A stretch of 64,000 bases of DNA from the NCBI RefSeq assembly GCF_007625205.1, contig NZ_VMNI01000006.1:186001-250000 (forward strand). Direction: 5' to 3'. The DNA is from Denitromonas ohlonensis (lineage in GTDB: Bacteria; Pseudomonadota; Gammaproteobacteria; Burkholderiales; Rhodocyclaceae). The notes beneath the pieces were generated by a model. That model saw only the letters and a program-made list of their open reading frames with translations, ran no database searches and was not told the origin of the DNA. The translations under genes and the position numbers were made by a program. Below, piece by piece: positions 4,493-56,663 of the stretch (position 1 is its first letter; each line of letters begins with the position of its first letter).

Positions 4493-4553
4493 GCGAGGCC
4501 GGCACATGAACGCTCACGCTCGTACAGATCGCCCGCAGCGATCCGAAGAACTC

Positions 4554-4619
4554 GTAGGGCGGGTTTCAACCCGCCATCTGCGCGGGGAAACACCGCGGCC
4601 GGATGAATCCGGCCCTACG
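4554..4619. repeat. REP family A copy plus related palindrome between ureA and ureB
   Basis: A forward family A unit (4554-4575) is followed by a second palindrome, GCGGCCGGATGAATCCGGCC with CTACG after it (4596-4619). Together they fill most of the gap between two structural subunit genes that must be made in equal amounts. Confidence 0.8.
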
Positions 4620-4648
4620 ACGCGGCACATGCCGCTCCGGAGGCCTTC

Positions 4649-4954
4649 ATGATTCCCGGTGAAATCGACACCCTGCCCGGCGAGATCGACCTCAACGTCG
4701 GCCGCGAGACGCTCACGCTCGAAGTCACCAACACCGGCGACCGGCCGGTGCAGGTCGGCTCGCACTACCACTTTTTCGAGACCAACCCGGCGCTCAGCTT
4801 CGACCGCGCGGCGGCACGCGGCTTCCGCCTGAACATCGCCGCCGGCACCGCGGTGCGCTTCGAGCCGGGGCAACTGCGCACGGTCGAACTGGTGGCGCTG
4901 GCCGGGGACCGGAAGGTCTACGGCTTCAACGGCCAAGTCATGGGGAGCCTCTGA
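4649..4954 (+). CDS. ureB: Urease beta subunit UreB
   Basis: Second small structural subunit of urease, 101 aa, full family length. The blocks [35 protein letters not shown] and [11 protein letters not shown] are typical. The start is preceded by GGAGG about 8 nt upstream. Its stop overlaps the ureC start (TGATG), so the two are translationally coupled. Confidence 0.96.
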
Positions 4955-6657
4955 TGAGTTTGAAGATTTCCCGCCGCGCCTACGCGGAAATGTTCGGCCC
5001 CACCGTCGGCGACCGGGTGCGCCTGGCCGACACCGAGCTATGGATCGAGGTCGAAAAGGACTACACCATCCACGGTGAAGAGGTGAAGTTCGGTGGCGGC
5101 AAGGTAATCCGTGACGGCATGGGCCAGAGCCAGCGGCTGTCGGCCGAGGTGGCCGACACGGTGATTACCAACGCACTGATCCTCGACCACTGGGGCATCG
5201 TCAAGGCCGACATCGGCATCAAGAACGGGCGCATCAGCGCCATCGGCAAGGCCGGCAATCCCGACATCCAGCCCGGCGTGACCATCCCCATCGGGCCGGG
5301 CACCGAGATCATCGCCGGTGAGGGCAACATCCTCACCGCCGGCGGCATCGACGCACACATCCACTTCATCTGCCCGCAACAGATCGAAGAGGCGCTGATG
5401 AGCGGCGTCACCACCATGCTCGGCGGCGGCACGGGACCTGCGACGGGCACCTACGCCACCACCTGCACGCCGGGGCCGTGGCATATCCACAAGATGATGC
5501 AGGCCGCCGACGCCTTCCCGATGAACCTCGGTTTTCTCGGCAAGGGCAACGCCAGCCTGCCCGGCGCGCTGGAAGAACAAGTGACGGCCGGCGCCATCGG
5601 CCTCAAGCTGCATGAAGACTGGGGCACCACCCCGGCGGCCATCGACACCTGCCTCGCGGTGGCTGAAAACATGGACGTGCAGGTCGCGATCCACACCGAC
5701 ACGCTCAACGAGTCCGGCTTTGTCGAACACACCGCCGCCGCCTTCAAGGACCGCTGCATCCACACTTTCCACACCGAGGGCGCGGGCGGCGGCCATGCGC
5801 CGGACATCATCAAGCTGGCCTCGCTGCCCAATGTGCTGCCCAGCTCGACCAACCCGACCCGGCCGTACACGGTCAACACCATCGACGAGCACCTCGACAT
5901 GCTGATGGTCTGCCACCACCTCGACCCGGCCATTGCCGAGGACGTCGCCTTTGCCGAGTCGCGCATTCGCCGCGAGACCATCGCCGCCGAAGACATCCTG
6001 CACGACCTGGGCGCCTTCTCGATGATGAGCTCCGACTCGCAGGCCATGGGCCGCGTCGGCGAAGTCATCATCCGCACCTGGCAGACCGCCCACAAGATGA
6101 AGGTGCAGCGCGGCGCGCTGGCCGAGGACACTGCCCGGCACGACAACTTCCGCGCCAAGCGCTACATCGCCAAATACACCATCAACCCGGCGATCAGCCA
6201 CGGCATCAGCCACCTGGTCGGCTCCATCGAGCCGGGCAAGCTGGCCGATCTGGTGGTGTGGAAGCCGGCCTTCTTCGGCGTCAAGCCCAGCCTGATCCTC
6301 AAGGGCGGCATGATCGCCGCCGCCGCCATGGGCGACCCCAATGCTTCCATCCCCACGCCGCAGCCGGTGCACTACCGCCCGATGTTCGGCAGCTACGGCG
6401 GCGGCCTGAAAACGGCGGTCACCTTCACCTCGCAGGCCGCGCTGGCGCAGGGCGCGCTCGACGGCCTGGGCCTGACCCGCCCGCTCGAAGCGGTGCGCAA
6501 CATCCGCGCCATGCGCAAGACCGACATGGTGCACAACGCCTGGATGCCCCGGCTCGAGGTCGACCCGGAAACCTACGAGGTGCGCGCCGACGGTCAGCTG
6601 CTCACCTGCGCGCCGGCCGACATCCTGCCCATGGCGCAACGCTATTTCCTGTTCTGA
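4954..6657 (+). CDS. ureC: Urease alpha (catalytic) subunit UreC
   Basis: Catalytic subunit carrying the dinickel site, 567 aa, full length. Visible active-site elements are [11 protein letters not shown] (two nickel His), [11 protein letters not shown] (the Lys that becomes carbamylated and a His ligand), [15 protein letters not shown], the mobile-flap region [20 protein letters not shown] with its catalytic His, and [12 protein letters not shown] with the Asp ligand. No key residue is missing, so the enzyme should be active once matured by UreDEFG encoded around it. Confidence 0.98.
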
Positions 6658-51518: not shown

Positions 51519-52220
51519 ATGCCCCACACGCGCCACACCCCGGAAGTGCATCACGCCCATCGCGCCGGATGGCTGCGCGCGGCGGTGCTGGGCGCCAATG
51601 ACGGCATTGTGTCGACCGCCAGCCTGATGCTCGGCGTGGCCGCCGCCGACGCCGGACACAGCGCCCTGCTGATCGCCGGCGTGGCCGGACTGGTGGCCGG
51701 CGCCATGTCGATGGCGGCCGGCGAGTATGTCTCGGTCAGCTCCCAGGCCGACACCGAGCAGGCCGACCTGCGCCGCGAGCGCGCCGAACTGGACGCCCAC
51801 CCGATCTACGAACACCAGGAACTGGCCGCCATCTACGTCAAGCGCGGCCTCAGCCCGACGCTGGCCGACCAGGTGGCGCACCAGCTGATGGACCACGACG
51901 CGCTCGGCGCCCATGCGCGCGACGAGCTGGGCATTACCGACACCCTGAGCGCCCGCCCCGTGCAGGCGGCACTGACCTCCGCCGCCACCTTCGCCGTCGG
52001 CGCCGCGCTGCCGCTGGCGGCGGCGATTGTCGCCCCGGCCCCCTGGCTGGTGCCGACCGTATCGGGCACCTCGCTGGTCGTGCTCGCGGCGCTGGGCACC
52101 CTGGCGGCCCGAGCCGGCGGGGCACCGATGCTCCGCGCCGCCGTTCGGGTCACGTTCTGGGGGGCGCTGGCGATGACGCTCACCGCGGCCGTCGGCCGCC
52201 TGTTCGGCACCGCGCTCTGA
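51519..52220 (+). CDS. VIT1/CCC1-family iron/manganese transporter
   Basis: A 233-aa membrane protein of the vacuolar iron transporter family. AAVLGANDGIVSTASLMLGV (span 1) and AGAMSMAAGEYVSVSSQADT (span 2) are diagnostic. A cytosolic Glu-rich loop (EQADLRRERAELDAH) provides metal ligands, and three C-terminal spans complete the fold. Probably exports or detoxifies Fe(II)/Mn(II). Confidence 0.88.
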   Translation: MPHTRHTPEVHHAHRAGWLRAAVLGANDGIVSTASLMLGVAAADAGHSALLIAGVAGLVAGAMSMAAGEYVSVSSQADTEQADLRRERAELDAHPIYEHQELAAIYVKRGLSPTLADQVAHQLMDHDALGAHARDELGITDTLSARPVQAALTSAATFAVGAALPLAAAIVAPAPWLVPTVSGTSLVVLAALGTLAARAGGAPMLRAAVRVTFWGALAMTLTAAVGRLFGTAL

Positions 52221-52343: not shown

Positions 52344-52502
52344 CTAGATTTTTCCAAGCAGCCACAGCACCAGCAGAATCAGCAGCACCAGACCAAGCCC
52401 GCCGCTGGGGCCATAGCCCCAGCCACGGCTGTGCGGCCAGGTGGGAATCACGCCCAGCAGCATCAGAATCACCACAATCAACAACACGGTTCCCAACGAC
52501 AT
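52344..52502 (-). CDS. DUF3309 family small membrane protein
   Basis: A 52-aa protein: MSLGTVLLIVVILMLLGVIP, then TWPHSRGWGYGPSGGLGLV and a second span ending LWLLGKI. This is the DUF3309 pattern, common beside stress genes in betaproteobacteria. Strong ribosome-binding site (GAGAGGAGAATGAA). It follows the BON gene by 80 nt and may be co-transcribed. Confidence 0.88.
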   Translation of the reverse strand: MSLGTVLLIVVILMLLGVIPTWPHSRGWGYGPSGGLGLVLLILLVLWLLGKI

Positions 52503-52520
52503 TTCATTCTCCTCTCACGC

Positions 52521-52577
52521 CATCGCGGCCACGGCGTGTGTCCGCGATGGCACGGCGGCCGGTGTCTTACCGGCCGC
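52521..52577. other. Two hairpins between the BON and DUF3309 genes
   Basis: CATCGCGG/CCGCGATG (52521-52528 with 52542-52549) and GCGGCCGGT/ACCGGCCGC (52555-52563 with 52569-52577, loop GTCTT). The second is followed by TTTGTTT on the plus strand only, so for the minus-strand genes it is more likely an attenuator or mRNA-stability element. Confidence 0.45.
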
Positions 52578-52582
52578 TTTGT

Positions 52583-52897
52583 TTATTTGACCCGCATGTC
52601 GTTCTTGACCGACGTCACACCCGCCACGCCGCGCGCCACCTCGGTCGCCCGGTTGGCCGCCGCCCGCGAGCTGACAAAGCCGCTCAGTTGAACGACCCCC
52701 TTGAAGGTTTCCACATTGATCTCGGCCGACTTGAGCATCGGATCACCGAAAATCGCCACTTTCACCTTGGATGTCACGACGCTGTCGTCGATGTATTCGC
52801 CCGTGCCTTCCTGCCTCGGCGTGGAACTGCAGCCCACCGAAGTAAGCAATGCCGCGGCCAGGACAATGGCTGACAAATAAGTACCGATACGATTCAT
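52583..52897 (-). CDS. BON-domain lipoprotein
   Basis: A 104-aa exported protein. Signal peptide with lipobox LLTSVGC (Cys 23), then one BON domain (DSVVTSKVKVAIFGDPMLKS, GVVQLSGFVSSRAAANRATE, GVTSVKNDMRV). OsmY-like proteins of this class protect the envelope under osmotic or general stress. Ribosome-binding site AAGGAGA. A Crp-type palindrome lies about 183 nt upstream. Confidence 0.92.
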   Translation of the reverse strand: MNRIGTYLSAIVLAAALLTSVGCSSTPRQEGTGEYIDDSVVTSKVKVAIFGDPMLKSAEINVETFKGVVQLSGFVSSRAAANRATEVARGVAGVTSVKNDMRVK

Positions 52898-53072
52898 GAT
52901 GTGTTCTCCTTGATGGGATGGACCTGCGGTTCTCGCACCAGAAAACACCGTACGAGCCACTGTTTCTGCAGCGATCGGCCTGAACGTCGCGAGGTGCTGG
53001 CGGGGCAGGCCCCGATTCGCACACCCACGTCGCTTGACTGGCACCAGCATAGCCATTGGTCATCGCCGAATC

Positions 53073-53088
53073 GGTACGCTAGCGAACA
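53073..53088 (-). promoter_or_regulatory. Crp-type palindrome, BON gene side
   Basis: On the minus strand TGTTCGCTAGCGTACC, 16 bp, member of the shared motif TGTKCG-N4-CGMACA. TATGCT follows 32 nt from its centre, consistent with a site near -42. Confidence 0.5.
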
Positions 53089-53156
53089 CATCACCCCCGC
53101 ACGGGGAATACCAAACCCAAGCGAAGCGCTTTCCGTCGGTGCGCGGCGCCGGCCTG

Positions 53157-53172
53157 TGTGCGCGGACGCACA
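53157..53172 (+). promoter_or_regulatory. Crp-type palindrome, desaturase promoter
   Basis: TGTGCGCGGACGCACA: perfect 6-bp inverted repeat around a 4-nt centre, the same overall size as the Crp half-site spacing (16 bp). Centre 106 nt before the desaturase ATG. Confidence 0.6.
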
Positions 53173-53270
53173 GACGCTGCAGGGTCATGCGCGCGATCAT
53201 CATGCTTGAGACGCCCGTGTCGTACGCAACCGCAAGGCATGAGGTCGCCGTGCTCCAGGAGAACCCGCAA

Positions 53271-54470
53271 ATGCCCATCCCCGTGCTTGATCTTCCCTGG
53301 TGGGGGGTCGTGCTGGTTACACTTGGCCTGACCCAACTCACCATCCTCTCGGTGACAGTTTTTCTCCACCGCCACCAGGCCCATCGCGCCTTGACGCTGC
53401 ATCCGGCCATCAGCCACGCCTTCCGTTTCTGGCTGTGGCTGAGCACCGGCATGATCACGCGCGAATGGGTCGCCATTCACCGCAAGCACCACGCCACCAC
53501 CGACACGGCCGACGACCCGCACAGTCCGCAGATCCACGGCATCCGCAAGGTGCTGCTCGAAGGCGCCGAGCTTTACCGGGAAGAGAGCTGCTGCGCCGCG
53601 ACAATCGAAAAATACGGCCACCACACGCCGGATGACTGGATCGAGCGCCGCCTGTACACCCGTCACAGCCAGCTCGGCATCGGCTTCATGCTGATCCTCG
53701 ACCTGCTGCTGTTCGGTCCGATCGGGCTGACCGTCTGGGCGGTGCAGATGCTGTGGATTCCGTTCTTTGCCGCGGGTGTGATCAACGGCATCGGCCACTA
53801 CTGGGGCTATCGCAACTTCGCCTCCAGCGACGCCTCGCGCAACATCGCGCCTTGGGGCGTCCTGATCGGCGGCGAAGAGCTGCACAACAACCACCACGCC
53901 TATATCAGCTCGGCGAAATTCTCGAATCGATGGTGGGAGTTCGACAGCGGCTGGGCGCTCATCCGCCTGCTTGAACTGCTCGGCCTGGCACAAGTGAGCC
54001 GGCTGGCGCCGACCATCCGCTACAACACAGCCAAACAGCGCTGCGACGCCGACACCCTGGCGTCGGTGCTCACCCACCGCTTCGATGTCCTGGCCGGTTT
54101 CGCCCGCGCCGTCAGCGGCGTCTCACGCGACGCACTGCACCGCCTCGCCTCCGGCGCCCAGCCCCCATCGCTGCGCGACGTCACCTTGCGTGACGCGGTC
54201 AGGCACTGGCTCTGGGCAAGCGTCGGCACCCTGCCCGAACCGGAGCGCCGGGCACTGGAAGACGCGCTGCCGGCCAGTGCCGTGCTGCGCACCCTGTATG
54301 GCCTGCGCGAGGATCTGGCCGCCCTGTGGCGTCGCTCCGATGCCTCCACGGCGCAACTGACCGCCCAGCTGGAGCGCTGGTGCCAACGCGCCGAGACCAG
54401 CGGCATCGCCGCGTTGCACGACTTCTCGCAGACACTTCGCAGCTACGAGTCCGTCGCCGCCCGGCCATAG
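53271..54470 (+). CDS. Membrane fatty-acid (acyl-CoA/lipid) desaturase
   Basis: A 399-aa di-iron desaturase with membrane spans and all three His boxes: HRHQAH (33-38), HRKHH (70-74) and HNNHH (205-209). The core resembles Delta-9 acyl desaturases (Ole1/DesC-like). An unusual C-terminal extension (about residues 280-399) is helical and basic. The ATG at 53271 has a good ribosome-binding site (CAGGAGA); longer starts read the promoter. Expected role: membrane unsaturation under stress. Confidence 0.9.
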   Translation: MPIPVLDLPWWGVVLVTLGLTQLTILSVTVFLHRHQAHRALTLHPAISHAFRFWLWLSTGMITREWVAIHRKHHATTDTADDPHSPQIHGIRKVLLEGAELYREESCCAATIEKYGHHTPDDWIERRLYTRHSQLGIGFMLILDLLLFGPIGLTVWAVQMLWIPFFAAGVINGIGHYWGYRNFASSDASRNIAPWGVLIGGEELHNNHHAYISSAKFSNRWWEFDSGWALIRLLELLGLAQVSRLAPTIRYNTAKQRCDADTLASVLTHRFDVLAGFARAVSGVSRDALHRLASGAQPPSLRDVTLRDAVRHWLWASVGTLPEPERRALEDALPASAVLRTLYGLREDLAALWRRSDASTAQLTAQLERWCQRAETSGIAALHDFSQTLRSYESVAARP

Positions 54471-54497
54471 CGAGCGCCACGGCCGCGCTGCTGTGGC

Positions 54498-54788
54498 TCA
54501 CTTCTTCTTGACCGTCCTGAGCCGCTCGGTCATCTCCTTGAGCGCCTCCCAGGCGGCGTCGGTATTGGTTTTGATCTGCTCCCAGTTCTCATCGTTCGCC
54601 TGCTGCAAATCTGACAGGTGCTGCAATGCCTCTTTGCGCTTGGTGTGGAGCGTCTCGATGTTCGTCTCGTACTGCCGCTTCACACGAACCTCCCACTGCT
54701 CGGCCTCGGCCAGGAGCGGCTCGATTTGCTCCTTCCATTCGGCCAACTGCTTTTCCATCAAGGCCAGATAGTCTTCTCGCTTGCTCAT
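54498..54788 (-). CDS. Coiled-coil stress-island protein
   Basis: A 96-aa acidic/basic helical protein (MSKREDYLALMEKQLAEWKE, then long heptad-rich helices to LRTVKKK), probably a coiled coil with no membrane span or signal. Ribosome-binding site AAGGAGC. A nearly perfect Crp-type palindrome lies 121 nt upstream. Family not named; similar small proteins accompany CsbD/BON genes. Confidence 0.82.
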   Translation of the reverse strand: MSKREDYLALMEKQLAEWKEQIEPLLAEAEQWEVRVKRQYETNIETLHTKRKEALQHLSDLQQANDENWEQIKTNTDAAWEALKEMTERLRTVKKK

Positions 54789-54901
54789 CTGAGTGCTCCT
54801 TCTCTTGGGTGTGCCATTCGATGCCAGCCGCAGCCCGCGCCGACAAATCGGCACAGCACGACCGGAAACCTGCAGCATGGGATCGAGTGCAAACGCCGGT
54901 C

Positions 54902-54917
54902 TGTTCGCTCGCGAACA
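54902..54917 (-). promoter_or_regulatory. Crp-type palindrome, coiled-coil gene promoter
   Basis: TGTTCGCTCGCGAACA, 7 bp of exact inverted repeat on each side of a 2-nt centre; the strongest of the five sites. CATGCT on the minus strand (54874-54879) lies 33 nt from the centre as a possible -10. Confidence 0.6.
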
Positions 54918-55002
54918 TAAGGTCGGCGCCGGGCACGAAGCCCCTACAAAAGCGGCGCGCAGCATGAATGCCCGAGCACTCACGCTGCGCGCCGCAGAAA
55001 AA

Positions 55003-55188
55003 TCAGATGGGCTTGGTCACGCTCTTCAGTTCTTCTTTGACATCCCCGGCAACGGCCTGGACCTTGCCCGCGACCTCGTCAATCTTGCCTTTTTGCTCAA
55101 GGTCCTTGTTGCCAACAAGCTGCCCGGCAGCTTGCTCAAGCTTGCCCTTCACCGCTTCGACACGGCCCTGCACTTGATCTTTGTTCAT
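55003..55188 (-). CDS. CsbD family stress protein
   Basis: A 61-aa hydrophilic helical protein: MNKDQVQGRVEAVKGKLEQA, GQLVGNKDLEQKGKIDEVAG, ending VKEELKSVTKPI. CsbD-like proteins are strongly induced in general stress responses; the biochemical role is unknown. A Crp-type site lies 112 nt upstream. Confidence 0.93.
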   Translation of the reverse strand: MNKDQVQGRVEAVKGKLEQAAGQLVGNKDLEQKGKIDEVAGKVQAVAGDVKEELKSVTKPI

Positions 55189-55292
55189 GTACTACTCCTC
55201 GGTGTTGCTATGTGGCAAAGGGATCTGCAGCACCCGCTTCCGGGCACCAGAGCCACCACACATTCACACTACCGCCGCGGTTCATGGCCGTC

Positions 55293-55308
55293 TGTGCGCC
55301 AGCGCCCA
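55293..55308 (-). promoter_or_regulatory. Crp-type palindrome between csbD-like and regulator genes
   Basis: TGTGCGCCAGCGCCCA (plus-strand reading), one or two mismatches from the dyad. Centre 112 nt from the CsbD ATG and 152 nt from the regulator ATG, so it could serve either or both. Confidence 0.5.
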
Positions 55309-55417
55309 TTGCAACGCAGCCGGCGCAAGAAAACCCAGCGCCGTCGCCTGCCGGTCGGCCTGACGCGCAAGCACGACCAATCCACGCCCTTGCATCGCGC
55401 GCGGACGCTCTCGCGCC

Positions 55418-55423
55418 TATACT
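55418..55423 (+). promoter_or_regulatory. Candidate -10 box of the Crp-like regulator
   Basis: TATACT, 30 nt before the ATG at 55453. No convincing -35 at 16-18 nt, which would fit activator dependence. Confidence 0.35.
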
Positions 55424-55452
55424 GAAAACGTCTTGTCCCACCCCGCGGCCCA

Positions 55453-56175
55453 ATGGCACAGAGCGAACCACATCCCCGCCAGAACCACCTCCTCGCGGCG
55501 CTTCCAGCGGCCGATGCCGAACGCATCTTCCCGCAACTCGAATACGTGCCGATGCCACTGGGCCACGTGCTATATGAATCCGGCATCCAGATGCGCCACG
55601 TCTATTTCCCGGCCACCTCGATCGTCTCCTTGCTCTACGTCATGGAAGACGGCGCATCCGCCGAAATTGCGATCGTCGGCAACGAGGGCATCGTCGGCGT
55701 CTCCCTTTTCATGGGCGGAGAAACCACCCCCAGCCGCGCAGTGGTCCAAAGTGCCGGCCACGCCTACCGCTGGGCGGGCCAGGCACTGAAAAACGAGTTC
55801 TATCTCGCCGGCCCCATGCAGCGTTTGCTGCTGCGCTACACCCAGAGCCTGATGACCCAGATGGCGCAGACCGCCGTCTGCAACCGCCACCACACCCTCG
55901 ACCAGCAGTTCTGCCGCTGGTTACTGCTGTCGCTCGACCGCCTGTCCTCAAACGAACTGGTGATGACCCAGGAGCTGATCGCCAACATGCTCGGCGTGCG
56001 CCGCGAAGGGGTCACCGAAGCGGCCGGCAACGTCCAGCGTGCCGGCCTCATCACCTACCAGCGCGGACACATCTCGGTCATCGACCGCCCCGGCCTCGAA
56101 GCACGCACCTGCGAGTGCTACGCGGTGGTCAAGAAAGAACTCGACCGCCTGCTCCCCTATTCCGACGGCCTCTAG
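55453..56175 (+). CDS. Crp/Fnr-family transcriptional regulator
   Basis: A 240-aa regulator: N-terminal cyclic-nucleotide-binding-like beta-roll (about 15-110), a dimer helix (about 120-165) and a winged helix (about 168-225). The recognition region is TQELIANMLGVRREGVTEAA; its Arg-Glu pair lines up with Crp Arg180-Glu181, which reads TGTG-like half-sites. The FNR iron-sulfur Cys cluster and the Crp cAMP residues are not evident, so the signal is unknown. It lies within the island whose promoters carry the shared palindrome and is the obvious candidate regulator. Confidence 0.88.
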   Translation: MAQSEPHPRQNHLLAALPAADAERIFPQLEYVPMPLGHVLYESGIQMRHVYFPATSIVSLLYVMEDGASAEIAIVGNEGIVGVSLFMGGETTPSRAVVQSAGHAYRWAGQALKNEFYLAGPMQRLLLRYTQSLMTQMAQTAVCNRHHTLDQQFCRWLLLSLDRLSSNELVMTQELIANMLGVRREGVTEAAGNVQRAGLITYQRGHISVIDRPGLEARTCECYAVVKKELDRLLPYSDGL

Positions 56176-56228
56176 CCACACCGCCCATCGGGATTCTTAT
56201 TGCCCGGCGCCAGCGCGCGCCCGGCGTG

Positions 56229-56244
56229 TGTGCGCTGACGGACA
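56229..56244 (+). promoter_or_regulatory. Crp-type palindrome, DUF1840 promoter
   Basis: TGTGCGCTGACGGACA, one mismatch in the dyad, centre 110 nt before the DUF1840 ATG. TAGCAT (56267-56272) lies 33 nt downstream of the centre, placing the site near -43. Confidence 0.6.
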
Positions 56245-56345
56245 GACCGCCATGCCCCGCGACGCGTAGCATTGTCACCCTGACCGCAGCCCGCGCAACC
56301 GCGAATCCCGTCCGCGGCCATCAGCCCCCTACAAGGAGACCCTGC

Positions 56346-56663
56346 ATGCTGATCACCTTCAAATCCGCCGCCAGCGGCGACGTCATTTTCCTCGAGAAAA
56401 TCGGAAAGAGAATGCTCGATGTGCTGCACAAGGACCGGGACGCCGCACAAGGCATCGTCACCGTCGAACAACTCCCCAAAGCGATCACTCGCGTGCGCGA
56501 GGCCATCGCCGCCGACGTCGCCGCGCAAGCCGGCCAGCCCCCCCGTGACAACACCGAAGAAACCCCCGACGCCGACCTCTCCTTCCATCAGCGGGGTCTG
56601 CCCCTGCTCGAACTGCTGGAACGATCACTGGCGGAAAAAGCCGTCGTGACCTGGGGCGTATGA
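56346..56663 (+). CDS. DUF1840 family protein
   Basis: A 105-aa cytosolic protein: MLITFKSAASGDVIFLEKIG, LHKDRDAAQGIVTVEQLP, and a C-terminal LLELLERSLAEKAVVTWGV. This is the DUF1840 pattern, frequent in betaproteobacteria; function unknown. Ribosome-binding site AAGGAGA. Last gene of the stress island. Confidence 0.87.
   Translation: MLITFKSAASGDVIFLEKIGKRMLDVLHKDRDAAQGIVTVEQLPKAITRVREAIAADVAAQAGQPPRDNTEETPDADLSFHQRGLPLLELLERSLAEKAVVTWGV

Follow-up and report, generated by a model that had tools for sequence, protein, structure and literature searches.

A window of 64,000 nucleotides (nt) from Denitromonas ohlonensis (contig NZ_VMNI01000006.1, positions 186,001 to 250,000), the whole stretch of DNA that was analysed from a genome of 4.42 megabases in 40 contigs, carries a compact gene island around a Crp/Fnr-type regulator of 240 amino acids (55453..56175, plus strand). 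Through five palindromic operator sites of 20 base pairs (bp), this regulator very probably activates nearby envelope-stress genes in class II fashion. Its targets would be a BON-domain lipoprotein together with a small membrane protein, a fatty acid desaturase, an sll1863-family protein, a CsbD-like protein and a DUF1840 protein. Comparison with related loci gives good support to the operator and to its spacing from the -10 hexamer; activation rather than repression and a common role of the targets in envelope or membrane stress are inferred.

The original prediction had placed five palindromes of the form TGTKCG-N4-CGMACA within the island, and all five were found: those at 53157 and 54902 match without mismatch, those at 55293 and 56229 with one, and that at 53073 with two. 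The distances to the downstream genes likewise hold. Site centres lie 106 to 121 nt before the ATG of the desaturase, the coiled-coil (sll1863-family) protein, CsbD and DUF1840, and the fifth site faces the BON lipoprotein at about 183 nt. When up to three mismatches are allowed, however, this loose pattern is ordinary in the window, with 123 matches against 141 expected, and the sites were therefore tested against other genomes.

The comparison used the best 80 of at least 589 loci, fetched with an alignment of 16 relatives of the regulator. These loci include near relatives, among them three Collimonas and three Cupriavidus records, so that the counts are not fully independent. When every perfect 6+6 palindrome was counted, at spacer lengths from 0 to 12, TGTGCG-N4-CGCACA and one overlapping form each came up in 14 of the 80 loci, behind only CAGCAG (25 loci) and AGCAGC (16 loci) patterns, and TGTACG-N4-CGTACA in seven. 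Exact matches to TGTNCG-N4-CGNACA number 75, spread over 48 of the 80 loci, against two in the reversed sequences. A 20-bp matrix grown from these exact sites finds 310 sites of at least 14 bits in 77 loci and eight in reversed sequence. The motif is present in many other bacteria, near genes related to that of the regulator. The resulting operator consensus is TNTGTNCG-NYRN-CGNACANA. In the 36 full-length loci the sites cluster near the regulator gene, 72 of 152 lying within 2 kilobases (kb) of it, and the next four 2-kb bins hold 23, 14, 16 and 25.

Applied back to the window, which was excluded from its training (the same-genus locus L050, from Denitromonas iodatirespirans, was included), the 80-locus matrix ranks the five sites first, at 24.2, 22.1, 21.8, 19.0 and 18.5 bits, with the sixth match at 9.2. 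A matrix built from the 25 loci titled gammaproteobacteria gives the same five first (24.5 to 18.5 bits; next 8.2), and 60 dinucleotide shuffles of the window produced three sites in total at 18 bits or more, the highest at 20.9. Site 1 (53071..53090; 24.2 bits) faces the BON lipoprotein and has a counterpart before BON in the same-genus loci L199, L200, L201 and L202. Site 2 (53155..53174; 18.5 bits), upstream of the desaturase, site 3 (54900..54919; 21.8 bits), upstream of the sll1863-family gene and identical in L202, and site 5 (56227..56246; 22.1 bits), upstream of DUF1840 and with a counterpart in L202, are perfect 20-mers. Site 4 (55291..55310; 19.0 bits), between CsbD and the regulator and upstream of CsbD, has two mismatches to the 20-mer and weaker counterparts in L199 and L202.

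The motif also travels with the regulator. The co-occurrence check that had been suggested was run by pattern search on 300 sampled genomes of the order, of which 101, about a third, encode a relative of the regulator (E<=1e-20). The 20-bp pattern occurs in 74 of these 101 genomes versus 23 of the 199 without the regulator (Fisher p 4e-27), and the two sets contain 14 and 22 sites of the reversed control pattern, respectively. Sites upstream of the regulator gene itself are usual elsewhere: 65 of 92 close relatives have one 20 to 400 nt upstream. Attribution of the five sites to the regulator, which had been offered as inference, thus has comparative backing, and on co-occurrence and the sites upstream of regulator genes the assignment appears strongly supported. 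That the five palindromes arose by chance, or serve some structural purpose without any regulator, is scarcely credible: the frequency of the loose pattern at up to three mismatches would suit such an origin, but the palindrome search, the reversed controls, the matrix ranking, the shuffles, the co-occurrence, the sites upstream of regulator genes and the hexamer counts given below contradict it.

Another Crp/Fnr protein could be the true binder, for example one of the more distant relatives (below 58% identity) that adjoin the regulator in many loci. These have a similar recognition helix, they probably use the same operator, and an upstream site is commoner among them, at 35 of 41 genes in the same loci versus the 65 of 92 of the close relatives. 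Yet the genome of the window has the sites and no such relative: in a single-protein search at E<=0.001, a range that more distant Crp/Fnr proteins fall outside, the sole match of the regulator is itself. A different binder is accordingly improbable, and the regulator encoded in the island is the preferred one.

By strict patterns, the regulon in this genome would be confined to the island. Of ten exact copies of the core TGTNCG-N4-CGNACA in the genome (reversed control seven), three are inside the island, and the exact 20-bp form is present three times (control 0), always in the island. The listing covered 20-mers up to one mismatch, of which there are ten, four in the island and six outside, against five in all for the reversed control. 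The outside matches were taken as chance because the reversed control is equally frequent. Three candidates outside the island, L001, L003 (the same as L197) and L192 (17.6 bits), were rejected; they lie inside long gene-like reading frames, that of L192 presumably being LptG. Long open frames were also seen at the remaining outside matches, a weak test in that the island sites lie in such frames too. Weaker members of the regulon could exist elsewhere in the genome.

The promoters next to the sites have the geometry of class II activation. The original prediction had -10-like hexamers 32 to 33 nt from the centre at most sites. They are present at all five, on the gene-ward side, with A second and T sixth, starting 29 or 30 nt and having their middles 32 to 33 nt from the centre. 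They are TATGCT (53046..53051, minus strand, 29 nt beyond the centre of site 1), GATCAT (53195..53200, plus strand, 30 nt past site 2) and TAGCAT (56267..56272, plus strand, 30 nt past site 5), each with four of six matches to TATAAT, and the weak CATGCT (54874..54879, minus strand, 30 nt past site 3) and TAGTGT (55266..55271, minus strand, 29 nt past site 4, towards CsbD), each with three of six. A site centred at -41.5 puts a hexamer that starts on base 30 at -12. All five window sites have a -10-like element, in weak form, at the distance that class II activation calls for.

The same spacing holds across the family, which extends the claimed geometry well beyond the island. Among 393 open reading frames (ORFs) downstream of sites in the family loci, which were allowed to overlap the regulator gene by at most 90 nt, 185 have a hexamer at 29 or 30 nt by the test used for the window hexamers, and eleven other offset pairs give 9 to 28. 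For 28 to 30 nt the count is 197, against 20, 33, 33 and 21 at four control offsets. Around 215 gene-oriented sites the hexamer starts at 29 nt in 26 cases, at 30 nt in 13 and at 26 nt in 11, other offsets having 0 to 7. The opposite direction from the same sites peaks at 29 nt as well (26 cases), which fits divergent promoters with a common site.

Several observations weigh against local activation by this regulator. Two of the five window hexamers reach only three of six matches to TATAAT. Site 4 is about 118 nt away from the likely -10 element of the regulator itself (TATACT, 55418-55423), and no well-placed -10 faces the regulator from this site in the window, which leaves self-activation unsupported here. 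Three of the 80 loci (L088, L100 and L112) have no site at 14 bits, and 27 of the 92 close relatives have no site 20 to 400 nt upstream of their regulator gene, two of them for want of DNA. The strict 20-mer is missing from 27 of the 101 genomes with the regulator and present in 23 of the 199 without it, and the Fisher test ignores kinship among genomes. The six one-mismatch 20-mers outside the island match the frequency of the control (five). Finally, in L199 no site at 12 bits precedes the sll1863-family gene.

Some of these points would also suit a regulator that binds the same sites and represses, or one that activates at some sites and represses at others. This would account for the weak hexamers at sites 3 and 4, the TATACT that lies far from site 4, and a small group of sites (7/215) whose hexamer stands at offset 67. 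Class II activators, however, have the spacing of 29 to 30 nt that dominates here, and weak hexamers are to be expected at activator-dependent promoters, as the promoters of Crp and Fnr illustrate. Repression, wholly or in part, is therefore unlikely. Under class II activation, a dimer of the regulator would bind the 20-bp palindrome at each of the five promoters, centred near -41.5 or -42.5, and would activate transcription through class II contacts to RNA polymerase.

The regulator belongs to the Crp/Fnr superfamily by its domains, Pfam cNMP_binding (PF00027, 31.4 bits, cut-off 27.5) and HTH_Crp_2 (PF13545, 47.8 bits, cut-off 27), and the comparative motif suggests a palindromic operator of the kind found in this superfamily. 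Its AlphaFold model (mean predicted local distance difference test score 91.6) and its VIA matches, which span residues 4-220, have an ordinary Crp/Fnr fold, and a profile comparison with solved sequences gives E-values no better than 4e-9. The best structural matches are MtbCRP (4a2u; Z 20.9, root mean square deviation 2.7, 217 residues aligned), GlxR (3r6s; Z 20.6, deviation 2.6, 216 aligned) and FNR (holo-FNR of A. fischeri, 5e44; Z 19.9, deviation 2.8, 217 aligned).

The likeness to Crp of Escherichia coli, MtbCRP and GlxR lies in the fold and the class II position; identity to MtbCRP and GlxR is 19% or less. The Crp palindrome has TGT...ACA ends, as this operator does, but its half-site is TGTGA rather than TGTNCG. 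The claim that the recognition helix keeps the Arg-Glu pair of Crp stands in part: the Arg is invariant, whereas 80 of 92 close relatives keep the Glu, and most relatives have Glu189 where Crp has its second Arg, Arg185. Unlike these proteins, the regulator has conserved cysteines, and there is no sign here of a cyclic AMP signal; the barrel itself is present. With FNR it may share, beyond the fold, an activator role and cysteines as a possible sensor. It is nonetheless not an FNR proper. It has no cysteine before residue 143, so that the N-terminal [4Fe-4S] ligands of FNR are missing, and its conserved Cys and His residues are found instead where the long helix ends and close to the beginning of the last one. 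The half-site of FNR, TTGAT, also differs from TGTNCG.

The only cysteines of the regulator are at positions 143, 154, 220 and 222. They were followed through the 80 loci and the window in 131 of 137 matching proteins, the other six having been dropped as short or containing stops. Cys143 and His147 are invariant in the 131, and none of the 128 proteins long enough to include positions 220 and 222 lacks a Cys at either; Cys154 occurs in 92 of 92 close relatives and in one of 39 others. In a further 60, more distant proteins, 37 have all four of Cys143, His147, Cys220 and Cys222, 18 have none and five have one, and when 4,159 position pairs are ranked by association, the first five all link two of these four residues. 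The full set is missing from 23 rows, 17 of them in a single clade (support 87/75), five outlying and one isolated, so that independent losses are few.

Because the four residues are kept or lost together, a metal or redox sensor of three Cys and one His is proposed. By secondary structure the long helix ends in a turn that contains Cys143 and is directly followed by His147; the last helix is directly preceded by Cys220 and has Cys222 in its first turn. On the sensor hypothesis the four would meet in space, and the metal or thiol-redox site would couple the hinge to the DNA-binding domain. A caveat comes from the same-genus locus L202, whose regulator (4540-5193) has lost in frame the stretch with Cys220 and Cys222 and whose operator sites are kept. 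The VIA listing contains no recognisable structure with a C-terminal cysteine site, which is not evidence of absence. More broadly, and as a tentative proposal somewhat short of even chances, a widespread Crp/Fnr clade may combine a 3Cys-1His metal, iron-sulphur or thiol switch, placed between the dimer helix and the DNA-binding domain rather than in the barrel or at the N-terminus, with self-contained envelope-stress islands governed via TGTNCG-N4-CGNACA.

The genes of the island begin with a 52-amino-acid membrane protein (52344..52502, minus strand, by translation; presumably DUF3309-like), whose homologues adjoin BON in L199 and L202 and whose gene is probably the second behind BON. The BON-domain lipoprotein (52583..52897, minus strand; Pfam BON 2.6e-18) is OsmY/DolP-like, the NCBIfam OsmY and DolP-type models matching below their cut-offs. 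Then follow a DesA-family fatty acid desaturase (53271..54470, plus strand; NCBIfam NF049918, 592.5 bits against a cut-off of 400), the coiled-coil sll1863-family stress response protein (54498..54788, minus strand; NF052504, 71.1 bits, cut-off 35), the CsbD-like protein (55003..55188, minus strand; Pfam CsbD 1.1e-13) and, beyond the regulator, the DUF1840 protein (56346..56663, plus strand; Pfam DUF1840 7.7e-25). The desaturase has a C-terminal tail like an ISL3 transposase (Pfam DDE_Tnp_ISL3, residues 264-393; NCBIfam NF049919, 111.4 bits), an odd fusion that is nevertheless curated. A VIT1-family membrane protein at 51519-52217 adjoins the island and is kept in L199; no strong operator site precedes it in the window.

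The island and most of its sites recur within the genus, in L199 and L202. L199, with a regulator 95% identical, has in order the membrane protein, BON, two sites, the desaturase, the sll1863-family protein, CsbD, two sites and the regulator, with a fifth site beyond. Between CsbD and the regulator it has an extra gene, which reads as a glycine-zipper lipoprotein, and an extra site; the corresponding gap in the window is several hundred bases shorter. L202 keeps this gene order, with seven sites of at least 12 bits and DUF1840 after the last. Its desaturase match (1447-2644) is broken near residue 143, by a frameshift or a sequencing error.

Similar genes lie behind the sites of other species. 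Of the 393 ORFs, 174 have the hexamer, start at least 30 nt from the centre and encode fewer than 1200 amino acids, 171 without the window's own ORFs or those with unread bases; 150 of these were scanned after 21, mostly long or doubtful, were removed by hand under no fixed rule. They matched 71 Pfam families, and among the best 25 of the 71 the commonest are BON (10), glycine zipper (10), CsbD (6), GGDEF (5), desaturase (5) and YSC84 (5). An Accumulibacter locus (L048, 454-16870) has 14 operator sites in about 16.5 kb, including sites before CsbD, phasin and GGDEF-PAS genes. L046, L048, L050, L052, L054, L057, L068 and L109 each have a second regulator (38-43% identity) behind the first and an operator site in the gap. 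Such relatives, taken as a group, retain Cys143, His147, Cys220 and Cys222 and are without Cys154.

Stress gene sets of the BON, CsbD, YSC84 and sll1863 kind are known, and the island and the genes behind sites of other species have the same content; what differs here is their tie to a Crp/Fnr operator. In an antimonite-resistant Achromobacter mutant a cluster of CsbD, DUF1328 and BON genes is jointly induced, and neither Crp nor Fnr is mentioned in the available part of that report (PMC11719878). Part of another (PMC11267869) lists seven of the Allochromatium genes Alvin_1143 to 1154, one encoding a CsbD protein, as induced by pyrite. This gene set was not found behind sites in the related loci L123, L091 and L102, where YSC84, hemerythrin and mostly ORFs with no match occur. 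A literature search by title and the start of the abstract, in part of which the spelling 'crp fnr' may miss 'Crp/Fnr', returned no paper on this operator or regulator.

Together, the comparisons would supply an operator and target genes for a regulator with a relative in 101 of the 300 genomes sampled from the order. BON, CsbD, YSC84, glycine-zipper and sll1863 proteins, none with a clear function, would be tied to one switch, and four residues are singled out as a route to the regulator's signal. We rate this as a branch of the Crp/Fnr superfamily with its own operator, a local regulon and an unusual conserved residue set.

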